Positions 19,261-30,831 of a stretch of DNA of 37,077 nt are shown here, piece by piece. The notes beneath the pieces are model-generated. The model was not told the origin of the DNA. It ran no database searches and was given only the letters and a program-made list of their open reading frames with translations. The number at the start of each line of letters is the position of its first letter. Position 1 is the first letter of the stretch. The DNA is from Hydrogenophilus sp. (GTDB lineage Bacteria > Pseudomonadota > Gammaproteobacteria > Burkholderiales > Thiobacillaceae), in NCBI GenBank assembly GCA_020725265.1, contig DYFK01000025.1, positions 1 to 37,077 of the forward strand. Direction: 5' to 3'. The position numbers and the translations under genes were made by a program.

Positions 19261-21141
19261 TCAGACCACCCCCAGCATCGACAAGCACCGGGCCAGATCG
19301 GGATCGCTCCGGCGCGCTGGCGGCGGCGCCATGCCGCGCTCGACCATGGTCGCCAGGCCCGCGATGGTCGGCGCCTGGTAGAACGCGGCCAGCGGCAGGG
19401 ACAGCCGGAAGGCTTCGTCGAGACGGGCGACGACCCGCGCGGCGAGCAGGGAGTGGCCACCCAGACTGAAGAAATCCGCTTCCCGGTCGATCCGTTCCAA
19501 CCGCAACACCTCCCGCCATATCCCGGCGATGCGTGCCTCGACCGCGCCACGCGGTCCGGCGACGGACAAGGGCGACGTCGGCATCGGCGCCGGCTCGTCC
19601 GGGCTGGCAAGGGCCTGTCGGTCGATCTTGCCGCTGGCGGTGAGCGGCAGCGCATCCCGGAAGACGAAACGGGCGGGCAACATGTAGTCGGGCAGGCTGG
19701 CCGCCAGGCGCCGGCGCAAATCGCCGGCATCGGGCTGGTGGCGCCGGCCCGCCACGACATACGCCACCAGGCCGTTCTCCCCGCTTGCGTCCGGCCCGGT
19801 CACCACGGCCGCCGCGTCGACGCCTTCGAGAGCGAGCAACGCGGCCTCGATGGCATCGAGTTCGACCCGATACCCCCGGATCTTGGTCCGGCGGTCGCCC
19901 CGGCCGAGCAGTTCGAGGCCGCCATCCGGCCTGAACCGGCCCAGATCGCCGGAAAGGTAGAGACGGCTCCCGGGGTTTTCCGGGTCGGCGACGAAACGCG
20001 TCCGGGTCAGCTCCGGTCGGCCCGGATAACCGGCCGCGAGGTAGCGGCTCGCCACCCCGATCTCGCCGACCCGACCGCTGTTCGCGGGCAGCGGCGCGCC
20101 ATCCGGATCGAACAGCCGCACCCGCTTGCCGGGCACGGCGTGGCCGACCGGGACTGCACCGGCACCGGCGTCGGCGCCAGGCGTCACCGTCAGCCTGTTC
20201 AGGCAGACCAGGCCGGCTTCGCTCATGGAGTAGCGATGGATGATCTCGACGCGATCGGACAGACGCCGGCGCGCGCGCGCCACGTCCCGGTCGTACAGGA
20301 TGTCGCCGCTGAGCACGACCCGACGCAGCGCCGGCAACGCCGGATCGGTCGTCGGCAATTCCAGGAAATGCCGGAACAGCGCGACCGGCGCGCGCATGCA
20401 GGTGATGGCCTGAGCGCGCAGCCAATCCGGCAGGCCGGCCGTGCCCCGGGCGCGAATGTCATACAGGCACAGACAGGCGCCGCTGAGCAACGCCCAATGG
20501 AGATCGGAAGTGGCCGCCGGAAACACCAGCGGCGTCAGCAGGGTCAGGCGGTCGCCGGGGAATACCGGGCTGAGCAGGCGGTCGACCGCCGCCCGATGCA
20601 GGCAGATGTCGTGGCGCCAGAGCACGCCCTTGGGCTGGCCGGAGGAACCGGAGGTATAGAAGATGCCCAGGTCCATGTCGGCCCGGACGGCAACGTCGGG
20701 ATCGGTTTCGGGCAAGCCACCGGGAATATCCTCGTACACCAGCAGGCGCGTTTCCCGGCCGGCCAGGGCGGCGGCGGCGGCCAGACCGGCCTGATCGCAC
20801 AGGATCAGGCGGGCGCCGCTGTCGGCGAGGATGGCCGCGTTCCGGTCGCGCGGAAAGGTCGGGTCCAGGCACACGTGGCACCCGCCGGCCTTGAGCACGC
20901 CCAGGATGGCCGCGATCACCGGCGCGTGGTGGCCAAACATCAGGGCAACCCGGGCATCCGCGCGCGCCAGGGCATGGGCGACACGGTTGGCGGCCCGGTT
21001 CAGGTCGCGGTAGTGCCAGACCTGACCGCGCGAGCGGATGGCCTCCCGGTCCGGATAGGCGGCGGCGATCGCCTGGAAACGGGCCGACACGGAATCGCCG
21101 GGGGCGATTTCGATTTCCGTCCGCCCGTCGCTGCCTTCCAT
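19261..21141 (-). CDS. NRPS-like adenylation-carrier protein (A-PCP didomain)
   Basis: A 626-residue protein. The adenylation domain shows YTSGSSGQPKGVL, YSMSEAGL, LYLSGDLGRFRPDGG, GDRRTKIRGYRVEL and LTASGKIDRQAL with catalytic Lys505. A carrier domain follows, with DFFSLGGHSLLAARV; Ser564 should take phosphopantetheine. It would adenylate an acid and load it on its own carrier as a thioester. Where alpha-amino-acid-activating domains have Asp (PheA position 235), my alignment places Pro208, so a substrate without an alpha-amino group is likely. No condensation or thioesterase domain is present. It is the last gene of the - strand block, beyond a tandem repeat. The ATG at 21141 fits the domain start; the one at 21183 is an alternative. 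Confidence 0.85.
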   Translation of the reverse strand: MEGSDGRTEIEIAPGDSVSARFQAIAAAYPDREAIRSRGQVWHYRDLNRAANRVAHALARADARVALMFGHHAPVIAAILGVLKAGGCHVCLDPTFPRDRNAAILADSGARLILCDQAGLAAAAALAGRETRLLVYEDIPGGLPETDPDVAVRADMDLGIFYTSGSSGQPKGVLWRHDICLHRAAVDRLLSPVFPGDRLTLLTPLVFPAATSDLHWALLSGACLCLYDIRARGTAGLPDWLRAQAITCMRAPVALFRHFLELPTTDPALPALRRVVLSGDILYDRDVARARRRLSDRVEIIHRYSMSEAGLVCLNRLTVTPGADAGAGAVPVGHAVPGKRVRLFDPDGAPLPANSGRVGEIGVASRYLAAGYPGRPELTRTRFVADPENPGSRLYLSGDLGRFRPDGGLELLGRGDRRTKIRGYRVELDAIEAALLALEGVDAAAVVTGPDASGENGLVAYVVAGRRHQPDAGDLRRRLAASLPDYMLPARFVFRDALPLTASGKIDRQALASPDEPAPMPTSPLSVAGPRGAVEARIAGIWREVLRLERIDREADFFSLGGHSLLAARVVARLDEAFRLSLPLAAFYQAPTIAGLATMVERGMAPPPARRSDPDLARCLSMLGVV

Positions 21142-21186
21142 GTCCGGTCGCGCTGGATGCCCGGACGCGGCGCGTCGGCGCATCGA

Positions 21187-21268
21187 CTCAGTCCCGCTGG
21201 ACCGTCCCGAGGGACTGATCCACCCCCTCGGGGGGCAGCGAACGAAGTGAGCGTGGGGGCTGTTTCAT
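21187..21268. repeat. 82-bp intergenic repeat, unit 1
   Basis: First of two directly repeated 82-bp units. It contains the perfect inverted repeat TCAGTCCC/GGGACTGA, then a C-run/G-run hairpin CCCCCTCGGGGGG and GCGAACGAAGTGAGCGTGGG. It differs from unit 2 at two positions that I can see. Confidence 0.92.
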
Positions 21269-21350
21269 CTCAGTCCCGCTGGGCCGTCCCGAGGGACTGA
21301 TCCGCCCCCTCGGGGGGCAGCGAACGAAGTGAGCGTGGGGGCTGTTTCAT
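21269..21350. repeat. 82-bp intergenic repeat, unit 2
   Basis: Second unit, starting CTCAGTCCCGCTGGGCC, immediately abutting unit 1; CTCAG of a third copy follows at 21351-21355. The two units fill most of the gap between the adenylation gene and the acyltransferase gene. The strong hairpins could attenuate transcription from the upstream genes into the adenylation gene. Confidence 0.92.
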
Positions 21351-21351
21351 C

Positions 21352-22014
21352 TCAGCCGGGTGACAACTGGTTGCTGCCGATCGGCAGGAGATCGGCCGGC
21401 TGGCTCATGTACACCCCCTTCTCCACCGTGTCGCCGAGGATGACGGCGCCGGCGCCGATGACGCAGGCCCGGGCGATGACCACCTTGTTGCGGATGGTGG
21501 CGTTGATGCCGATGTAGCTGTAGGGCTCGACCGTGACATGGCCGGCGATCTTGACGCTGGCGGACAGATAGCAGTGGTCCTTGATCACGCTGTGATGGCC
21601 GATCAGGCTGTCGCCGCCGATGAATACGTCGTCGCCGATGCGCGCGAAAGGCTGGATGCGGGCGTTTTCGTTGATGCGGCAGTTTTCGCCCAGGATGAAG
21701 CCATCCCAGATCGAGGCTTTCGGGCTGACGTAGCTGACCAGGCGATAGCCCATTTCCTTCGCTTCCCGGTACCGCTCCGCGCGCAGGCGGTTCACCTGGA
21801 CGTAGCCCACCGCGATCATCATGCGGTGATCGGCGGGCGGATAGCGCGCGGCGATCTCGTCCCAGGGCACCAGGGGCAGGCCGTGAAAGCTTTCCTCCCG
21901 GATCAGGTCGCGGTCGACGGTGAAGGCGACGATCCGGTAATCGGTGTCCCGGCTGAACTGATAGTGCAGGACTTCCGCCACCGAGCCGTTGCCGTAGAGG
22001 ATCAGTTTTTCCAT
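21352..22014 (-). CDS. NeuD/PglD-type left-handed beta-helix acyltransferase
   Basis: A 220-residue protein. An N-terminal Rossmann-like PglD_N domain (LILYGNGSVAEVLHYQF) is followed by hexapeptide repeats from about residue 90 (ASIWDGFILGENCRINENA, IGDDVFIGGDSLIGHHSVI, CVIGAGAVILGDTVEKG). His in GHHSVI is at the place of the catalytic base of PglD/NeuD. Family members acetylate amino- or hydroxy-sugars using acetyl-CoA. Here the neighbouring carrier protein might supply an acyl group instead, but that is inference. Its start overlaps the end of the fusion gene by 13 nt, so it is coupled to it. Confidence 0.85.
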   Translation of the reverse strand: MEKLILYGNGSVAEVLHYQFSRDTDYRIVAFTVDRDLIREESFHGLPLVPWDEIAARYPPADHRMMIAVGYVQVNRLRAERYREAKEMGYRLVSYVSPKASIWDGFILGENCRINENARIQPFARIGDDVFIGGDSLIGHHSVIKDHCYLSASVKIAGHVTVEPYSYIGINATIRNKVVIARACVIGAGAVILGDTVEKGVYMSQPADLLPIGSNQLSPG

Positions 22015-24059
22015 GGTGCTCCTTCGGGTTGCCGGGCGGGGCGCGCCGGCGCGGCCCGGTAGACGGCCTGGGGCCGACAGTAGAACGACTCGTCCCAGCG
22101 GCCATGCTCCGGCGGCCCCATGCCGGAAGCCTTCCAGCCGCCGAAGGGCGCCTCCGGATGGATGCCGCGACCAGCGTCGTTGATGCGCAGGATACCGGCC
22201 CGGGCATGCCTGGAAAAATGGCGCAGCTGGTCCTCGTCATCACTGTACAGACTGGCCACCAACCCCTGTTCGACGTCGTTGCACAGGGCCACGGCGGCCT
22301 CGAAATCGTCGGCGCGCAGAACGACCACGACCGGGCCGAAGCTTTCCTCGCGGACGATGGCGTCGCCCGCGTCGGCCGGGGCGATCACCGTCGGTTCGAG
22401 CCAGCAGCCCTGGCCCGCGTGGGCGGGAATGCCGCCGCCGCGCAGCAGTTCGCCGCCCCGGCTCAGGGCGGCCTCGACGCGCGCCAGGACCTCATCCCGC
22501 CGTTGCCGGGAGAGCAGCGGCCCCACCCGGGTTTCCGGGTCGGCCGGATGGCCGAGGCGCAGTTCGCCGACCCGGGCCAGGAACAAGGCCAGGAAATCGT
22601 CATACCGGTCCCGGGTCACGATCAGGCGCCGGGGCGCGGTGCAACGCTGGCCGCTGAAGCTGAACGCCGCGCTCGCCAGCTCGGCGGCGGCCCGGGCGGG
22701 ATCGCGGCAGGCGCCGATCACCACGCCGTTGTTGCCGCCCAGTTCCGCCTGCAAGGGTTTGCCGCTCAACGCGCACAGGCCGGCGATGGCGCGGCCGGCG
22801 GCCACCGAGCCGGTGAAGGAAATGGCGGCGACGTCGGCATGGCGGACCACCGCCTGGCCGGTTTCCGCGTCGCCGATCACCACGTTCACGCAGTCCTCCG
22901 GAAAGCCTGCCTCGGCGAGACTGGCGAGCACGTGGTCGACGATGCCCAGGCCGGGCGGCGCCGGTTTCCAGAGCACGGTGTTGCCGTATGCCAGGGCTGG
23001 CGCGATCTTGCCCACCGGGATCGCGAGCGGGTTGTTCCAGGGCGTGATCAGGCCGACCACGCCCAGAGGACGGCGCATCACCTCGACGCCGTCGGCGATC
23101 CGTTCCGGTGCCCGCGCGCCCGCCCGCCCGGCGGCGGCGGCAAGCAGGCCGAGCGCGTAATCGAACTCCGCCTCGGCGTCGGCCACCGGCTTGCCGATCT
23201 CCCGCGTCAGCGCGGCGACCATCGCCGCCCGTCGGCCGGCCAGGGCGTCGGCCCAGGCACGCAACCGGGCCGGCCCCTGATCAGCGGCCTCGTCCGCCCA
23301 ATGCCGCTGCCGTTCCCGGGCCCGGCGCGCGGCGAGATCGACGTCGTCGGCATCGCCGATGGCGACGGTGTAGAGCAGCTCGGCGTGGTCGGCCGGGTTG
23401 TGCTGGCGCCAGACGCGGCCGCTTCCGGAAGCCCGCCAGCCACCGCCCGCGTGCACCGGCTCGCGCGGGCTCGCGCCGGGCGCCGGATCGCCCAGACTCA
23501 GGTTCAGGCGGCGAGCGATTTCCGCCATGGTCAGGAAACGGCAGGCCCGGCCTTCCAGATGGTCACGGCTCAGCGCGGCATGCGCGGGATCGTAGGAAGC
23601 CACGCCATCGGCGGCGACCCAGACCTCGTAGCCGCGCTGGTAGGCATCCAGCACGGTGGCGCGCACGCAGGCATGGGCATGCACGCCGGCGACCACCAGC
23701 ACACGCGCGCGCGGTCCGGCATGCCCGCTCCGGTTCTGGAACGGACTGTAGAAGGTCTTCGCCAGGATCGGCTCATCCGCCCGCGCCTCCAGTTCGGCGG
23801 GCGGCGCGGCGCCGGGCGTGCCCTCGACGCAACGCCAGAGATTGTCGCGGCGCCAGTGCGGCATGCGGTCGTCGACGTCGGCGCGCACCAGGGTGCGCGC
23901 GTGCGCGACCGGCAGGCCGGCGGCGCGAAAGGCCGCCAGCAGGCGGGCGATATTGCCGGTGAGGGTGCCGGCATCCGGAACCAGGCCGGGGTGGGCCAGG
24001 AAATCACGCTGAAGATCGACCAGCAGCAGCGCCGCGCGCGCATCGGCGGCGACATTCAT
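22002..24059 (-). CDS. Isochorismatase-like hydrolase fused to aldehyde dehydrogenase
   Basis: A 685-residue fusion. Residues 1-185 are an isochorismatase-superfamily cysteine hydrolase with the triad Asp15 (LLLVDLQRDF), Lys101 (ILAKTFYSPF) and Cys131 (GVHAHACVRATVLDA). Residues about 200-665 are an NAD(P)-dependent aldehyde dehydrogenase: LITPWNNPLAIP, FTGSVAAGRAI, QAELGGNNG with Glu439, FSGQRCTAPRRL with the nucleophile Cys473, and PFGGWKASGMG. Both halves have all their catalytic residues. The hydrolase type cannot be named: relatives include amidases, nicotinamidases and true isochorismatases. A fusion suggests that the two reactions follow each other. Its start overlaps the stop of the dehydrogenase gene by 4 nt, and its end overlaps the acyltransferase. 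Confidence 0.88.
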   Translation of the reverse strand: MNVAADARAALLLVDLQRDFLAHPGLVPDAGTLTGNIARLLAAFRAAGLPVAHARTLVRADVDDRMPHWRRDNLWRCVEGTPGAAPPAELEARADEPILAKTFYSPFQNRSGHAGPRARVLVVAGVHAHACVRATVLDAYQRGYEVWVAADGVASYDPAHAALSRDHLEGRACRFLTMAEIARRLNLSLGDPAPGASPREPVHAGGGWRASGSGRVWRQHNPADHAELLYTVAIGDADDVDLAARRARERQRHWADEAADQGPARLRAWADALAGRRAAMVAALTREIGKPVADAEAEFDYALGLLAAAAGRAGARAPERIADGVEVMRRPLGVVGLITPWNNPLAIPVGKIAPALAYGNTVLWKPAPPGLGIVDHVLASLAEAGFPEDCVNVVIGDAETGQAVVRHADVAAISFTGSVAAGRAIAGLCALSGKPLQAELGGNNGVVIGACRDPARAAAELASAAFSFSGQRCTAPRRLIVTRDRYDDFLALFLARVGELRLGHPADPETRVGPLLSRQRRDEVLARVEAALSRGGELLRGGGIPAHAGQGCWLEPTVIAPADAGDAIVREESFGPVVVVLRADDFEAAVALCNDVEQGLVASLYSDDEDQLRHFSRHARAGILRINDAGRGIHPEAPFGGWKASGMGPPEHGRWDESFYCRPQAVYRAAPARPARQPEGAPWKN

Positions 24060-25192
24060 GCGCCGTCGCCCCCGCGCCCAGCCGACAGCCGGGCATCCAG
24101 GGCGGCTCCGACGCGCTCGCCGAGTTCGCGGGTTCCCACCAGCCGGGAGCCGGCGCTGGCGATGTCGGCGGTGCGATAACCGCGCGCCAGGGTCTCGTCG
24201 ACCGCCGCCACGATGGCCGCCGCCTCCCGCCGCATGGCGAAGGACTCGCGCAACATCATGGCCAGGGACAGGATCTGCCCGACCGGATTGGCCCGGCCGG
24301 TGCCGGCGATGTCATGGGCGGCACCGTGGCCGGTCTGGTAGACGGCATGGCCGCCGGCATCGAAATTGCCGGAATGGGACACGCCCCGGGAGCCGAGCAG
24401 CAAGGCGCCGCAATCGGCGAGCACGTCGCCGAACATGTTCGGGGAAACCACCACGTCGAAATCGCGGGCGTTGGCGATCAGCTGATAGACGGCATTGTCG
24501 ATTTCCAGCACGCGCAGATCGACGCCGGCCTGATCGGCGATTTCACGCGCCAGTTCCTGCCACAACGCGCTCACGGAAGGCACGCCACCGGGCTTGGTGG
24601 TGATGGTCAGACGCCCGCGTCTTTGTCCGGCAAGCGCCGCGCCCACCCGGACAATACGTTCGATTTCCCGTTCTCCATAGCTGAAGCCGTGAAAGGCCTC
24701 GCGAGCGCCATCGGCGCCCGCGCGCTCGCCCCACTGCCCCAGATAGAGGCCGGCGGTGTTCTCGCGGACCGCGACGATATCGACATCGGCGAGACATTCC
24801 GGCCGGATCACGCCGGTATCGCGCAACGCCGGCAGGGGCCGCAGCGGCGTGAACTTGCAGAACAGATCGAAACGGGCGCGCAATTCGTAGACGAAACGAT
24901 CACCGCCCGGACCGCAGAAGACGGCGCCACCCTCGGCGAACACCCGCTCGCAGAACCCCACGACTTCATCGGTGAGGCACTTACCGTGCTGGCGCATGGC
25001 CGGCTTGCCGATCATGCCACCATGACGCACGACGAATTCCGGCGTGCCGTGGGCGGTGAGCACATCCAGCAGCGACAGCGCGAGCGGAACGATCTCCGCG
25101 CCGACGCCTTCGCCGGTCAACACGCCGATCACCGGCGACGAACGCCGCTCGCGTGGCTGGCCGGCTTCCGGCAGCGCGTTCAACAGACGCAT
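24056..25192 (-). CDS. Isocitrate/isopropylmalate dehydrogenase-family enzyme
   Basis: A 378-residue beta-decarboxylating dehydrogenase. Seen are the start VIGVLTGEGVGAEIVPLAL, VRENTAGLYLGQW, the TITTKPGG region, FDVVVSPNMFGDVLADCGALLLGS and GHGAAHDIAGTGRANPVGQILSLAMML. The family oxidises (2R,3S)-3-substituted malates with NAD(P) and loses CO2. The substrate is not clear: the region that sets specificity differs from LeuB and Icd, and there is no leuCD nearby. It is the first gene of the - strand block and is coupled to the fusion gene. GGGAG stands seven bases before ATG 25192; an ATG at 25219 would add nine residues. Confidence 0.85.
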   Translation of the reverse strand: MRLLNALPEAGQPRERRSSPVIGVLTGEGVGAEIVPLALSLLDVLTAHGTPEFVVRHGGMIGKPAMRQHGKCLTDEVVGFCERVFAEGGAVFCGPGGDRFVYELRARFDLFCKFTPLRPLPALRDTGVIRPECLADVDIVAVRENTAGLYLGQWGERAGADGAREAFHGFSYGEREIERIVRVGAALAGQRRGRLTITTKPGGVPSVSALWQELAREIADQAGVDLRVLEIDNAVYQLIANARDFDVVVSPNMFGDVLADCGALLLGSRGVSHSGNFDAGGHAVYQTGHGAAHDIAGTGRANPVGQILSLAMMLRESFAMRREAAAIVAAVDETLARGYRTADIASAGSRLVGTRELGERVGAALDARLSAGRGGDGA

Positions 25193-25241
25193 GGTGAACT
25201 CCCGACCAGTGCTGAGCACATCGAAACACCCTCTTCTCGTC

Positions 25242-25261
25242 GCTCCCGTCCGCGCGGGAGC
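25242..25261. other. Hairpin upstream of the dehydrogenase gene
   Basis: GCTCCCG (25242-25248) and CGGGAGC (25255-25261) form a perfect 7-bp stem about 50 bases before the start at 25192, followed on the + strand by CGAATAAAAT. It may lie in the leader of the - strand transcript. Function unknown. Confidence 0.4.
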
Positions 25262-25278
25262 CGAATAAAATCAAGGCG

Positions 25279-25308
25279 CTGGATTCCCGCCTTTGCAGGG
25301 AATGACAG
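25279..25308. repeat. dRS3-like short inverted repeat (copy 2)
   Basis: ATTCCCGCCTTTGCAGGGAAT, written here as arms ATTCCC and GGGAAT nine bases apart, flanked by CTGG and GACAGG. It resembles the element at 2494-2523 and the dispersed dRS3-type elements of other Proteobacteria. It lies between the dehydrogenase gene and yqjK. Confidence 0.6.
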
Positions 25309-25332
25309 GATTTTCGAGATGTCCCGCCGTGG

Positions 25333-25605
25333 TCAACGCAGTTTGCGCAGCAGCAGCCAGGCGGTCCAGCCGCGCCGCAGCCACGCGCCGGCGCGCGCCG
25401 GCTTCAGCGCGATCAGCAACGCGATGCCGCCGGCGAACAGCACCGGATGACGGCGCACCGCGCGCAGCGCGGCCAAGCCCTGATCGGCCAGGGCCAGCGG
25501 CGCGCGCCAGGGTTCGATGCCGCGCGCCAACGCCGCGCGCTGGGCCGCCGCCTCGGCGATCAGACGCTCGCGGCGTTCGGCCAGCCGGTTTGCCTTGCCG
25601 TTCAT
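25333..25605 (-). CDS. yqjK: YqjK-like small membrane protein
   Basis: A 90-residue protein with a basic, helical N-terminus (NRLAERRERLIAEAAAQRAAL) and a hydrophobic segment near residues 55-68, followed by Arg-rich sequence. This pattern and its position after yqjE match the YqjK family; function unknown. Its start overlaps the end of the yqjE gene by 4 nt. Confidence 0.75.
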   Translation of the reverse strand: MNGKANRLAERRERLIAEAAAQRAALARGIEPWRAPLALADQGLAALRAVRRHPVLFAGGIALLIALKPARAGAWLRRGWTAWLLLRKLR

Positions 25606-27545: not shown

Positions 27546-28016
27546 CTAACCCGACTGGTCGGGCGATCGGTCGAGCAGCCAGCCGGCCAGCCAGGCGCGC
27601 GCTGCCGCGAGGTTGGCCGCCGCGTCCGGGCTGAGTCCTTCGCCCAGTTCGAAGGCATGACCGCGGATCGCCAGCGTCCAGGCCGGCGGCGGCTGGCCAT
27701 AGAGCTTGCGGTAGGCATGCAGCACGGCGCCGGGTGACAGCGCGTGGCTGCTGTAGCTGGCATCCTCCTCGGCGACGGTGGCGGTGAAGGCGAACGGCGC
27801 CGGCGCATCGAGGCTGGCGTCGACGAAGATCACCTCGCGCCGGCCGCGCAGGTCGAGGGCGAATTCGACCTGAAGCTGGAAATCGGTGAGCAATTCCACG
27901 CCCGGCGGGTCCAGGTCTTGCAGCGATTCGATCAGCAGCGGGCCGAGCGCGTCGTCGCCGCGGCTGGGGTTGCCGATGCCGATCACCAGGATGGGGGGCG
28001 GGGTGCTCAACAACAC
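27546..28016 (-). CDS. hoxW: [NiFe] hydrogenase maturation endopeptidase
   Basis: A 156-residue HyaD/HycI-family protease. ILVIGIGNPSRGDDALGPLL carries the metal-binding Asp/Glu region, and FVDASLDAPAPF and YSSHALSPGAVL follow as in the family (the His contacts nickel). It removes the C-terminal extension of HoxH after nickel is inserted. The start is a GTG at 28016 that overlaps the end of hoxH by 10 nt, so its production is coupled to its substrate. Confidence 0.88.
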   Translation of the reverse strand: MLLSTPPPILVIGIGNPSRGDDALGPLLIESLQDLDPPGVELLTDFQLQVEFALDLRGRREVIFVDASLDAPAPFAFTATVAEEDASYSSHALSPGAVLHAYRKLYGQPPPAWTLAIRGHAFELGEGLSPDAAANLAAARAWLAGWLLDRSPDQSG

Positions 28017-29521
28017 GCGGCCACGTCGCCCGCGCCGCCGCGCGTCAGCGTGTCGATCCGGCGACCTTCGGCGTCGAGCAGTTCAACCTGCAAGGGCATC
28101 TTGCCGAGCGCGTGCGTGGCGCAGGACAGACAGGGGTCGAAGGCGCGCACGGCGACCTCGATGTGGTTGAGCAAGCCTTCGTTGAGCTTGCGGCCGTCGA
28201 GGTATTGCCGGGCGACCTGGCGCACCGCCTCGTTCATGGCCTGATTGTTGTGCGTGGTGGAGACGATCAGGTTGGCGCGGATCACCTGGTCGTGCTCGTC
28301 GACCCGGTAGTGGTGAATCAGCGTGCCGCGCGGCGCCTCGATCATGCCGACACCGCGTTCCTGGCGTTCACCCTTGACCATCAGGTCGGTGCCTTGCAGG
28401 TCGGGGTCGTGCAGCAGTTCCTTGATGGTTTCGGCGGCATGCAGCATCTCGATCATGCGCGCCCAGTGGTAGCCGAGGGTGGCACCGCTGGGTTTGCCCG
28501 CTTCGTTACCGGCGCCAAAGGCGAGGAACTCCTGGCGTTCACGCTCGGCCAGCGGCGTCGGGATGAAATCGCACTGCGCCACGCGCGCCAGCGGGCCGAC
28601 ACGGTACCAGCCGGTTTCCGGCCCGAGCGCCTTCAGGAAGGGGAATTTCATGTACGACCAGGGTTTCACTTCCTCGCTGATCTGTTCCCAGTAGCGGTTG
28701 TAGTCGACGTGGTCGAAGATCGTCCTGCCGTCCATGTCGCGCGCGCGCAGGCCGCCGTGGTAAAGGTCCATGGCGCCGTCGGCGCGGATCAGACCGAGGG
28801 TATGGGCGCGGAAGCGGCCGAAGGCGTTGTACTCGTCGAGGTTCTGTTCGAACAGGCGGCGCGCCAGATGCACCGCGTCGCGGCACCAGCCGATGATCGG
28901 ATAGATATCCTTGAGCAGTTCGTCGCGTTCGGCCAGCGACAGATTCTTGTTGACCCCGCCCGGCACCGAGCCGGTGCCGTGGATGCGCTTGCCGGCGGTG
29001 TGGCGGATCACCTCCTGGCCAAACTTGCGCAGCAGCACGCCCTGGCGGGCGACTTCCGGATACTCGGCGGCGACGCCGACGATGTTGCGCCGCGCCACGT
29101 CCGAGTCGAAGCCGAACAGCAGGTCGGGCGACGACAGGTGGAAGAAATGCAGCGCATGCGATTGCAGGATCTGACCGTAATGCATGAGCCGACGCAGCTT
29201 GTCGGCGGTCGGCGTCAGGCGCGCGCCGCCGGCGCCAACGCCGACGATCTGGTCGAGCGCCTTGCTCGCCGCCAGGTGGTGCGACACCGGGCAGATGCCG
29301 CACAGGCGCTGCACCATCACCGGCACTTCCCAATACGGGCGGCCCTGGATGAATTTCTCGAAGCCGCGGAACTCGACGATATGCAGGCGGACCTGCTGGA
29401 CGTGCTCGTCCTCGTCGAGCAGCAAGGTCACCTTGCCGTGGCCCTCGACGCGCGAGATCGGGTCGATGGCGACGCGGCGCAGGGTTTCCGGATGGGCGGC
29501 GGTTTCCAGGTTGGATGTCAT
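28007..29521 (-). CDS. hoxH: NAD-reducing [NiFe] hydrogenase large subunit
   Basis: A 504-residue group 3d catalytic subunit. The [NiFe] ligands are Cys74 and Cys77 (RLCGICPVSHH) and Cys464 and Cys467 (DPCLSCATHALGKMPL). About 34 residues follow His470, the expected cleavage point of the maturation protease, and end unusually in Cys-Cys. It splits or forms H2 at the active site and exchanges electrons with HoxY. I chose ATG 29521, which has GAGG six bases before it; ATG 29536 is possible and would overlap hoxY. Confidence 0.95.
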   Translation of the reverse strand: MTSNLETAAHPETLRRVAIDPISRVEGHGKVTLLLDEDEHVQQVRLHIVEFRGFEKFIQGRPYWEVPVMVQRLCGICPVSHHLAASKALDQIVGVGAGGARLTPTADKLRRLMHYGQILQSHALHFFHLSSPDLLFGFDSDVARRNIVGVAAEYPEVARQGVLLRKFGQEVIRHTAGKRIHGTGSVPGGVNKNLSLAERDELLKDIYPIIGWCRDAVHLARRLFEQNLDEYNAFGRFRAHTLGLIRADGAMDLYHGGLRARDMDGRTIFDHVDYNRYWEQISEEVKPWSYMKFPFLKALGPETGWYRVGPLARVAQCDFIPTPLAERERQEFLAFGAGNEAGKPSGATLGYHWARMIEMLHAAETIKELLHDPDLQGTDLMVKGERQERGVGMIEAPRGTLIHHYRVDEHDQVIRANLIVSTTHNNQAMNEAVRQVARQYLDGRKLNEGLLNHIEVAVRAFDPCLSCATHALGKMPLQVELLDAEGRRIDTLTRGGAGDVAACC

Positions 29522-29528
29522 GGCAACC

Positions 29529-30080
29529 TCAGTCATAGCGAATCAGCTCCGGCCCCAGGCGCGGCGTGCGGCCGGCCAGCAGGTCGGTGAGGAACTTCCA
29601 GATGGTGTCCGCCGACGGCGGGCAGCCGGGCAGGAAGTAATCCACCTTCACCACCTCGTGCAGCGGGCGCACCTTGTCCAGCGGCAGCGGGAGTTCCGGG
29701 TCGTTGGGGATCATGCCGGAGGCGAGGCTGATCTCGGTGACGTAGACCTCCCTCAGGCAGTCGGCGAGATCGAGGTGGTTGCGTTGCGCCGGCAGGCCGC
29801 CAGTCACCGCGCAAGCGCCGACCGCGACCAGGATCTTGCAGTTCTTGCGGAACTCGCGCAGCACGTGCACGTTTTCCGCGTTGCAGATGCCGCCTTCCAC
29901 CAGGCCGACGTCGCAGGGGCCGCAGTGCTTGATGTCGGTCAGCGGCGTGCGGTCGAACTCGACGTGCTCCAGCAGCGTGAACAGGCGCTCGTCGATATCC
30001 AGCAGCGACATGTGGCAGCCGAAACAGCCGGCCAGCGAGGTGGTGGCGACGCGGATCTTGTTCTGTTCGGGGGCGGCCAT
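29529..30080 (-). CDS. hoxY: NAD-reducing hydrogenase small subunit
   Basis: A 183-residue small subunit without signal peptide, as expected for a cytoplasmic enzyme. Proximal [4Fe-4S] ligands are visible in LAGCFGCHMSLLD (Cys19, Cys22), VGACAVTGGLP and LPGCPPSADTIW. It passes electrons between the nickel site in HoxH and the HoxFU diaphorase. It lies between hoxU (4 nt gap) and hoxH. Confidence 0.95.
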   Translation of the reverse strand: MAAPEQNKIRVATTSLAGCFGCHMSLLDIDERLFTLLEHVEFDRTPLTDIKHCGPCDVGLVEGGICNAENVHVLREFRKNCKILVAVGACAVTGGLPAQRNHLDLADCLREVYVTEISLASGMIPNDPELPLPLDKVRPLHEVVKVDYFLPGCPPSADTIWKFLTDLLAGRTPRLGPELIRYD

Positions 30081-30084
30081 GGCG

Positions 30085-30831
30085 CTACTCCTCGCACGCC
30101 GCGCAGCGGCCGTCGCCACTCGGCGGACGCGGCGCGTCATCGAGCGCCTGGGCGCTGATCGGACGCTGGTCATAGCGGCGCGCGCCGATCGGCACCGCGA
30201 AACCGACGCGCTTCCTGAGGATCACGCCGACCGGGCAGACTTCCATGGCCTTGTCGGTGAGCGCGATGTCGGTATCCACCAGTTTGCCGGAGGCGGCGTT
30301 GACCACCAGGTGCTTGTCGATGCCGCGTCCGGACAGCGCGAACACGCATTTGCCGTCGACCTCGCAGGAGGCGCGCACGCACAGTTCGCAAAGGATGCAG
30401 CGGTTGAAGTCGAGCAGGATGTCGGGGTGCGAGGCGTCCACCGGCCGGTCCGGGAAGAAGTGGCGGAAACCGGCGGTCATCACGCCGAGGTCCGAACCGA
30501 GCGCCTGCAACGCGCAGTTGCCGCTCTTCTCGCAGGACGGGCAGAAATGGTTGCCCTCGGCGAACAGCATCTGCACCAGGGTGTGGCGCAATTCGTGCAT
30601 TTCCTCGCAGTCGCTGGCGATCTCCAGGCCGGGCTGCGCCGGCAGCGTGCAGGACGCGGCGGTGCGCTCGCCGACCTTCACGGTGCACACCTTGCAACTG
30701 CCGTGCGGCTTGAACTCCGGGTGGTAGCACAGGTGCGGGATGTAGCGGCCGGCGGCGAGCGCCGCCTGCAAGACGCTCTGGCCGGGGGCGAAGGGTACGT
30801 CCTCGCCGTCGAGGAGAAAGGTGTCGGTCAT
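30085..30831 (-). CDS. hoxU: NAD-reducing hydrogenase diaphorase iron-sulfur subunit
   Basis: A 248-residue homologue of the N-terminal part of NuoG. It carries a [2Fe-2S] cluster (Cys35, Cys46, Cys49, Cys61), a His-Cys3 [4Fe-4S] cluster (His95, Cys97, Cys100, Cys106) and ferredoxin-type cysteines (RCILCELCVRASC, AMEVCPVGVI). It wires HoxF to HoxY. The C-terminal tail ends RCAACEE, two extra cysteines past the usual end. Confidence 0.95.
   Translation of the reverse strand: MTDTFLLDGEDVPFAPGQSVLQAALAAGRYIPHLCYHPEFKPHGSCKVCTVKVGERTAASCTLPAQPGLEIASDCEEMHELRHTLVQMLFAEGNHFCPSCEKSGNCALQALGSDLGVMTAGFRHFFPDRPVDASHPDILLDFNRCILCELCVRASCEVDGKCVFALSGRGIDKHLVVNAASGKLVDTDIALTDKAMEVCPVGVILRKRVGFAVPIGARRYDQRPISAQALDDAPRPPSGDGRCAACEE

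Follow-up and report, generated by a model that had tools for sequence, protein, structure and literature searches.

The stretch of DNA analysed here (the window) comprises 37,077 nucleotides of contig DYFK01000025.1 from Hydrogenophilus sp. (assembly GCA_020725265.1), and harbours between positions 19261 and 25219 a compact cluster of four genes on the minus strand. Reading of the open reading frames (ORFs) coupled with domain searches established that these genes specify, in order of transcription, an isopropylmalate dehydrogenase (IPMDH)-like enzyme, a fusion of a cysteine hydrolase with an aldehyde dehydrogenase (ALDH), an acyltransferase of the NeuD family, and a didomain protein composed of an adenylation (A) domain and a peptidyl carrier protein (PCP) domain, all with motifs that appear intact (Table 1). 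The Pfam and TIGR03570 matches thereby bear out the four same-strand gene types named in an initial annotation of this region. As was also claimed there, the first three genes overlap, the dehydrogenase and fusion genes by 4 bases and the fusion and NeuD-type genes by 13 bases, while the NeuD-type gene is separated from the A-PCP gene by a gap of 168 bases that holds an 82-bp tandem repeat; because this repeat has strong stem-loops, expression of the A-PCP gene may be attenuated, or separate from that of the first three genes. A 19-base core of the repeat occurs once in another contig (L004) of the same genome.

Table 1. Genes, domains and repeat of the four-gene cluster, with positions in the window
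Feature	Position	Strand	Size, matches and remarks
IPMDH-like dehydrogenase, presumably NAD-type	24056..25219	-	PF00180, E 2.8e-67
Bifunctional hydrolase-ALDH, whole gene	22002..24059	-	685 amino acids; PF00857 (residues 10-179) and PF00171 (residues 208-666)
Cysteine-hydrolase (isochorismatase-like) domain	23523..24032	-	Residues 10-179; PF00857
ALDH domain	22062..23438	-	Residues 208-666; PF00171
NeuD/PglD/PerB-type left-handed beta-helix acyltransferase	21352..22014	-	220 amino acids; TIGR03570
82-bp tandem repeat	21187..21355	.	Between genes 3 and 4; 2.1 copies, 97% matches; strong stem-loops
A-PCP didomain protein, whole gene	19261..21183	-	640 amino acids; PF00501, PF13193, PF00550
Adenylation domain	19627..21078	-	Residues 36-519; PF00501 and PF13193
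Peptidyl carrier domain	19342..19533	-	Residues 551-614; PF00550; GGHS phosphopantetheine serine present

A related core was found in genome G240, a distant member of the same class, where a dehydrogenase (54% identity to that of the window over 351 residues), a fusion protein (40% identity over 673 aligned columns) and an AMP-forming ligase follow one another in the same order as in the window, each gene overlapping the next. As the core recurs with its order and overlaps, the linkage of dehydrogenase, fusion and acid ligase can be regarded as seen twice, the NeuD-type and PCP components being so far particular to the window, and such recurrence in a distant genome is more than chance; it supports the proposal of the initial annotation that the genes form a linked pathway. 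The G240 core lies on a contig with genes of polysaccharide type, as Pfam matched one glycosyltransferase, one nucleotide-sugar dehydrogenase and one nucleotide-sugar epimerase/dehydratase among the eight proteins tested from that contig, and further glycosyltransferase-, flippase- and sulfotransferase-like ORFs were recognized by eye only. We consider the cluster to represent a real, rare and partly conserved pathway and interpret it, at a probability of about 0.4, as a rare acid-supply and acyl-transfer cluster in which an acid held on the PCP is passed on by the NeuD-type enzyme, likely to an amino sugar of the cell surface.

The dehydrogenase, whose start lies at 25219 (GTG) or at 25192 (ATG, as implied by the end coordinate of the initial annotation) and whose residues are numbered here from the GTG, was aligned with LeuB of Escherichia coli, DmlA and the G240 homologue. 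It retains R114, R152, Y159, K209, D241, D265 and D269, which represent the arginines of the LR and VRE motifs, the tyrosine, the lysine and three aspartates; we assume that the arginines bind the substrate and that the tyrosine, lysine and aspartates are catalytic, just as we assume the preference for NAD. By its fold family and its Tyr, Lys and Asp residues the enzyme can be assigned to the beta-hydroxyacid oxidative decarboxylases of PF00180, and it shares with the LeuB and tartrate/malate dehydrogenases of this family the tyrosine, the lysine, the three aspartates and two of the three substrate arginines. It differs from LeuB, however, in that T124 occupies the place of the arginine in the 'LRP' motif (arginine in both LeuB and DmlA, threonine in the G240 homologue), in that the loop before the LR motif is shorter by about 13 residues (by 10 as compared to DmlA, the gap being common to the G240 homologue), and in that it scores 221.4 bits with the leuB NCBIfam model, below the cut-off of 353.2. 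Owing to the absence of this substrate-binding arginine and of part of the preceding loop, the oxidative decarboxylation with which the initial annotation opened its make-acid, activate and transfer logic is not established, whereas the activation of an acid is favoured by the predicted preference of the A domain for a substrate without an alpha-amino group.

The hydrolase domain of the fusion protein carries, when aligned with RutB, the Asp-Lys-Cys triad of amidases (D15-K101-C131), and its Cys131 stands where EntB has a glycine, the cysteine of EntB being one position further. We take the lack of a cysteine at the nucleophile place to be the mark of a true isochorismatase of the EntB type, and judged by Cys131 the domain appears to be a cysteine hydrolase of the amidase type rather than such an isochorismatase. 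Its nearest NCBIfam model is that of biuret amidohydrolase (44 bits as compared to a cut-off of 370), and nicotinamidase models are also near, far below their cut-offs. The ALDH domain can be placed in the ALDH superfamily by its PF00171 match and its candidate catalytic cysteine and glutamate, C473 and E439, which together with N342 are invariant between the window and G240 and whose catalytic roles we presume. The NCBIfam models nearest to this domain, 2,5-dioxovalerate and alpha-ketoglutaric semialdehyde dehydrogenase, were matched below cut-off, and the nearest solved structures are L-sorbosone and betaine aldehyde dehydrogenases. AlphaFold predictions from two-row alignments yielded poor models, with mean pLDDT values of 50.7 and 51.5.

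Alignment of the A domain to EntF gave the specificity code P A S R V S R L V K, with proline at the place of Asp235 and arginine at positions 278 and 322. For comparison, 26 other A domains were taken from the loci of an order-wide A-PCP search (28 were in range, of which L073 and L086 were dropped as they yielded no intact segment); Asp235 is present in 25 of these, the exception being an A-PCP protein of genome G866 with asparagine, and arginine at 278 or 322 is present in none. In amino-acid A domains Asp235 binds the alpha-amino group, according to a passage of one paper (PMC11355689), and typical alpha-keto-acid A domains are described in part of another as having an aliphatic residue at 235, with one exception that retains Asp235 (PMC10949194). 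The replacement of Asp235 by proline suggests that the A domain takes an acid without an alpha-amino group, and the two arginines of the predicted pocket point to an acid that perhaps has a second acidic group. The protein does not resemble an alpha-amino-acid module of a nonribosomal peptide synthetase (NRPS), as it lacks Asp235 and as Pfam matched no condensation or thioesterase domain in any of the four cluster proteins, in agreement with the initial annotation. Genes of the phosphopantetheinyl transferase (PPTase) family are located elsewhere in the Hydrogenophilus genome. The A-PCP layout is shared with NRPS-type proteins on contig C36 of the same genome and on contigs C437 and C226 of G866, and Asp235 is likewise absent from the C36 and C437 proteins and, by eye, from that of C226; these, however, stand beside condensation domains, an ABC transporter-like gene or a PPTase-like gene (partly by eye), whereas the neighbours of the window A-PCP are acid-making enzymes and a NeuD-type acyltransferase. 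Loci L088 and L089 of G866 hold two short A-PCP proteins without Asp235 (one with Asn, the second judged by eye), and of these two one adjoins an NRPS together with an ABC transporter-like gene and the other a PPTase-like gene (names by eye).

The acyltransferase scores 167.5 bits with TIGR03570, above the cut-off of 160.8; among solved structures its best relative is a perosamine N-acetyltransferase, with acetyltransferases of the PglD type also among the best, and the first histidine of its HH pair aligns with a histidine of PglD that we take to be catalytic. The acyl transfer expected by the initial annotation finds support in this membership of a family named for sugar N-acetyltransferases. 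The window gene differs from those of NeuD, PglD and PerB in adjoining an A-PCP gene, and for this reason the donor is probably an acyl-PCP rather than acetyl-coenzyme A (acetyl-CoA). In the Hydrogenophilus genome nine DegT-family matches were found, of which three are strong, and one DegT-family aminotransferase gene lies approximately 4.7 kb from a gene for GDP-mannose 4,6-dehydratase (598 bits, cut-off 415), at a locus that also contains glycosyltransferases and ABC-2 permease-like genes. This proximity makes 4-amino sugars plausible in this genome, and an amino-sugar acceptor is plausible for the window enzyme, no locus for it having been found in the genome.

We infer the following substrate, product, order of steps, transfer from carrier to NeuD-type enzyme, and acceptor. 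The dehydrogenase and the amidase-type hydrolase/ALDH would convert a precursor of the hydroxy-acid type, through amide or ureido and aldehyde intermediates, into a small carboxylic acid that lacks an alpha-amino group and probably has a second acidic group. This acid would be adenylated by the A domain and loaded onto the PCP of the same protein, and the NeuD-type enzyme would then hand the carrier-bound acyl group to an amine; the acceptor would most likely be a 4-amino-4,6-dideoxyhexose, or an amino sugar like it, in a surface glycan. This logic resembles that of the tetronate set of Vibrio cholerae O1, the closest known system, which comprises a ligase, a carrier and a hexapeptide transferase together with other oxidoreductases, and is not known to include a hydrolase-ALDH fusion; a ligase, a carrier and a left-handed beta-helix transferase are likewise all present in the window. 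In V. cholerae O1 a dedicated set of genes, VC0248-VC0252 (wbeL and neighbours), makes tetronate, a hydroxy acid that is attached to the amino groups of perosamine, a 4-amino-4,6-dideoxy sugar, according to a part of the paper concerned (PMC3441752). The V. cholerae set is situated within an O-antigen locus, whereas the window carrier forms one protein with an NRPS-type A domain and its link to a sugar is putative. It is possible, if doubtful, that the window encodes an undescribed carrier-protein pathway in which an amidase-ALDH fusion and an atypical IPMDH homologue without the LRP arginine build an acyl group that is acidic and not of the amino type, and in which an A-PCP protein presents this group to a NeuD-type enzyme that places it as a new N-acyl group, for example the half-amide of a dicarboxylic acid, on a surface amino sugar. 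If true, this would join NRPS-type A-PCP loading to NeuD-type sugar acylation, which are usually separate, and would make an unfamiliar fusion enzyme an acid supplier; the compact four-gene set would allow its product to be tested in a laboratory host, and a hydrolase-ALDH fusion beside a dehydrogenase without the LRP arginine could serve as a marker for similar clusters.

Several observations weigh against the transfer of a carrier-bound acid to a surface amino sugar. Known NeuD enzymes use acetyl-CoA as donor, no sugar genes were found among the neighbours of the window cluster that were searched, and one of the three strong DegT matches is of the RfbH type, which presumably is a dehydrase producing no amine, while the other two reach the cut-off of none of the aminotransferase models; these matches thus identify no specific amino sugar. 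The dehydratase/aminotransferase locus moreover has a NeuD-type enzyme of its own (C12:110919-111518, with a higher family score of 196 bits; 29% identity to the window enzyme over 173 residues), which rules out the window enzyme as a missing acyltransferase for that locus. Among the solved relatives of the hydrolase domain, amidases are joined by isochorismatase-type proteins, and both pocket arginines are positioned by alignment alone. The G240 ligase is short, with 366 amino acids, has neither the C-terminal lobe nor a PCP and shows no close homology to the A domain of the window (E 0.22), and a tblastn search of the whole G240 contig with the window NeuD-type enzyme, PCP and A domain gave no match at E 0.1; as this search also missed the Pfam-confirmed ligase it was insensitive, its negative outcome for NeuD and PCP is weak, and that contig may yet encode a carrier or transferase that has diverged.

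An alternative destination for the acyl group is offered by contig C36, which encodes a cryptic NRPS of the order A-PCP-C-PCP-C followed by A-PCP (C, condensation; domain types from Pfam, order read from the sequence) at L013:11135-17928. On this reading, the cluster would make an unusual acyl unit for the C36 nonribosomal peptide, the A-PCP protein supplying it in trans and the NeuD-like enzyme capping an amine. The last C36 A-PCP is 48% identical to that of the window and is likewise without Asp235 (code V A V H F A R A I K, with Val at 235 and Arg at 322); the first C36 protein has two condensation domains and two carrier domains for a single A domain, which leaves one module without a matched A domain; and a PPTase-family match (PF01648, 39.7 bits, 67 of 111 positions) lies about 1 kb upstream of the NRPS. 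Furthermore, among the 27 of 300 genomes of the order that matched the A-PCP at E 1e-75, this is the sole one of its genus, the four other genomes of the genus listed in that search giving no match. Nevertheless, the cluster and the NRPS are located on different contigs, both loci occur together in only one genome, their similarity may merely reflect copying of an A-PCP from the NRPS, and the G240 core sits on a contig with polysaccharide-type genes, all of which render this explanation unlikely. The product might also be a free small molecule, such as an amide or a short lipid-like conjugate, formed by NeuD-like acylation of a metabolite amine with neither a sugar nor an NRPS involved: four genes would be enough for an acid and its amide, and the neighbours searched yielded no match to an exporter or a glycosyltransferase, yet the NeuD family is named after sugar acceptors and the related core in G240 has polysaccharide-type genes on its contig, and we regard this possibility as quite improbable. 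That the genes form a catabolic module, in which an amide or ureido acid is degraded via a semialdehyde and the A-PCP gene is adjacent by chance, is very improbable, as an AMP-forming ligase follows the fusion in G240 too, the NeuD-type gene overlaps the fusion gene and the neighbours searched include no transporter or CoA-pathway gene, even though the amidohydrolase, nicotinamidase and semialdehyde dehydrogenase models nearest to the fusion, all matched below cut-off, and the tandem repeat that sets the fourth gene apart would suit it.

The acid-supply and acyl-transfer cluster that we favour is rare and sporadically distributed, and is not a trait of the genus. The neighbourhood that the initial annotation had proposed to look for in other genomes showed no conservation in the relatives searched, but its first two genes and a ligase are kept in one distant genome. 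Searched for at E 1e-100, the fusion occurred in one of 101 genomes, the Hydrogenophilus genome itself, and in none of its 100 relatives (20 of the 21 rows listed being other genomes of the same genus). Within the class it was detected in two of 369 genomes, namely this genome and G240. The dehydrogenase profile similarly detected one of 114 relatives of G240 (G240 itself), one of 398 genomes of the phylum and one of 399 of the order (in both cases the Hydrogenophilus genome), and two of 266 of the class (this genome and G240). These sets overlap, the thresholds, from 1e-80 to 1e-100, were strict and the wide searches scored only the top 3-7 candidates per genome, so that weaker relatives may be missed. 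None of the 3398 plasmid records with a match covered at least 80% of the fusion; 692 plasmid records matched the dehydrogenase, of which, among the 12 listed, the best-ranked has 38.7% identity and the five that are annotated are all leuB. In viral contigs 97 and 24 stretches fitted the pattern of the two two-row profiles and none encoded a relative, while a scan of a contig collection with the fusion protein gave a single irrelevant match (31% over residues 323-406). In the relative with the closest SPFH protein (G003), the NfeD-SPFH pair (identities of 81% and 86%) precedes an alpha/beta-hydrolase-like ORF (by eye) and hydrogenase genes, and tblastn at E 1e-8 gave no match to the four cluster proteins in this 14-kb stretch or in those from five other genomes of the genus; the cluster is thus either an insertion in this genome or a loss in its relatives. 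Nothing on such a gene set was found in open-licence PMC text, which accords with the view of the initial annotation that no described pathway has this set; the parts are familiar, and their combination looks undescribed.

The families found among the immediate neighbours of the cluster are NfeD, SPFH, YqjK-like, holin-like, DUF883 and DUF5648 proteins. No exporter, regulator, glycosyltransferase, transporter or CoA-pathway gene was found among the neighbours whose families were searched, and to that extent the lack of export and regulator genes remarked in the initial annotation holds. PADLOC matched none of the four cluster proteins, and a defence-system reading was dropped on that account. 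The GC content of the cluster is 66-75% in 1-kb steps and is not clearly apart from that of the rest of the window. Upstream of the dehydrogenase gene, at 25220-25340, there is an apparent dispersed-repeat motif (ATTCCCGC...GGGAATGAC), recognized by eye only. Genes for the large and small subunits of a NiFe-hydrogenase lie at 28007-30173, their nearest models being VhuA/VhuG, below cut-off, and hydrogenase genes are found near NfeD-SPFH in G003 too. On the G240 contig, proteins of 341 and 320 amino acids encoded at L012:4713-5738 and L051:18780-19742 have N-termini that are similar by eye, and neither has a Pfam match. A block of glycosyltransferase-like ORFs (by eye) extends over L051:1946-9799 of the same genome, and its third-position GC, mostly 0.32-0.42 (0.59 in the last) and below that of its flanks, suggests that the block was recently acquired.

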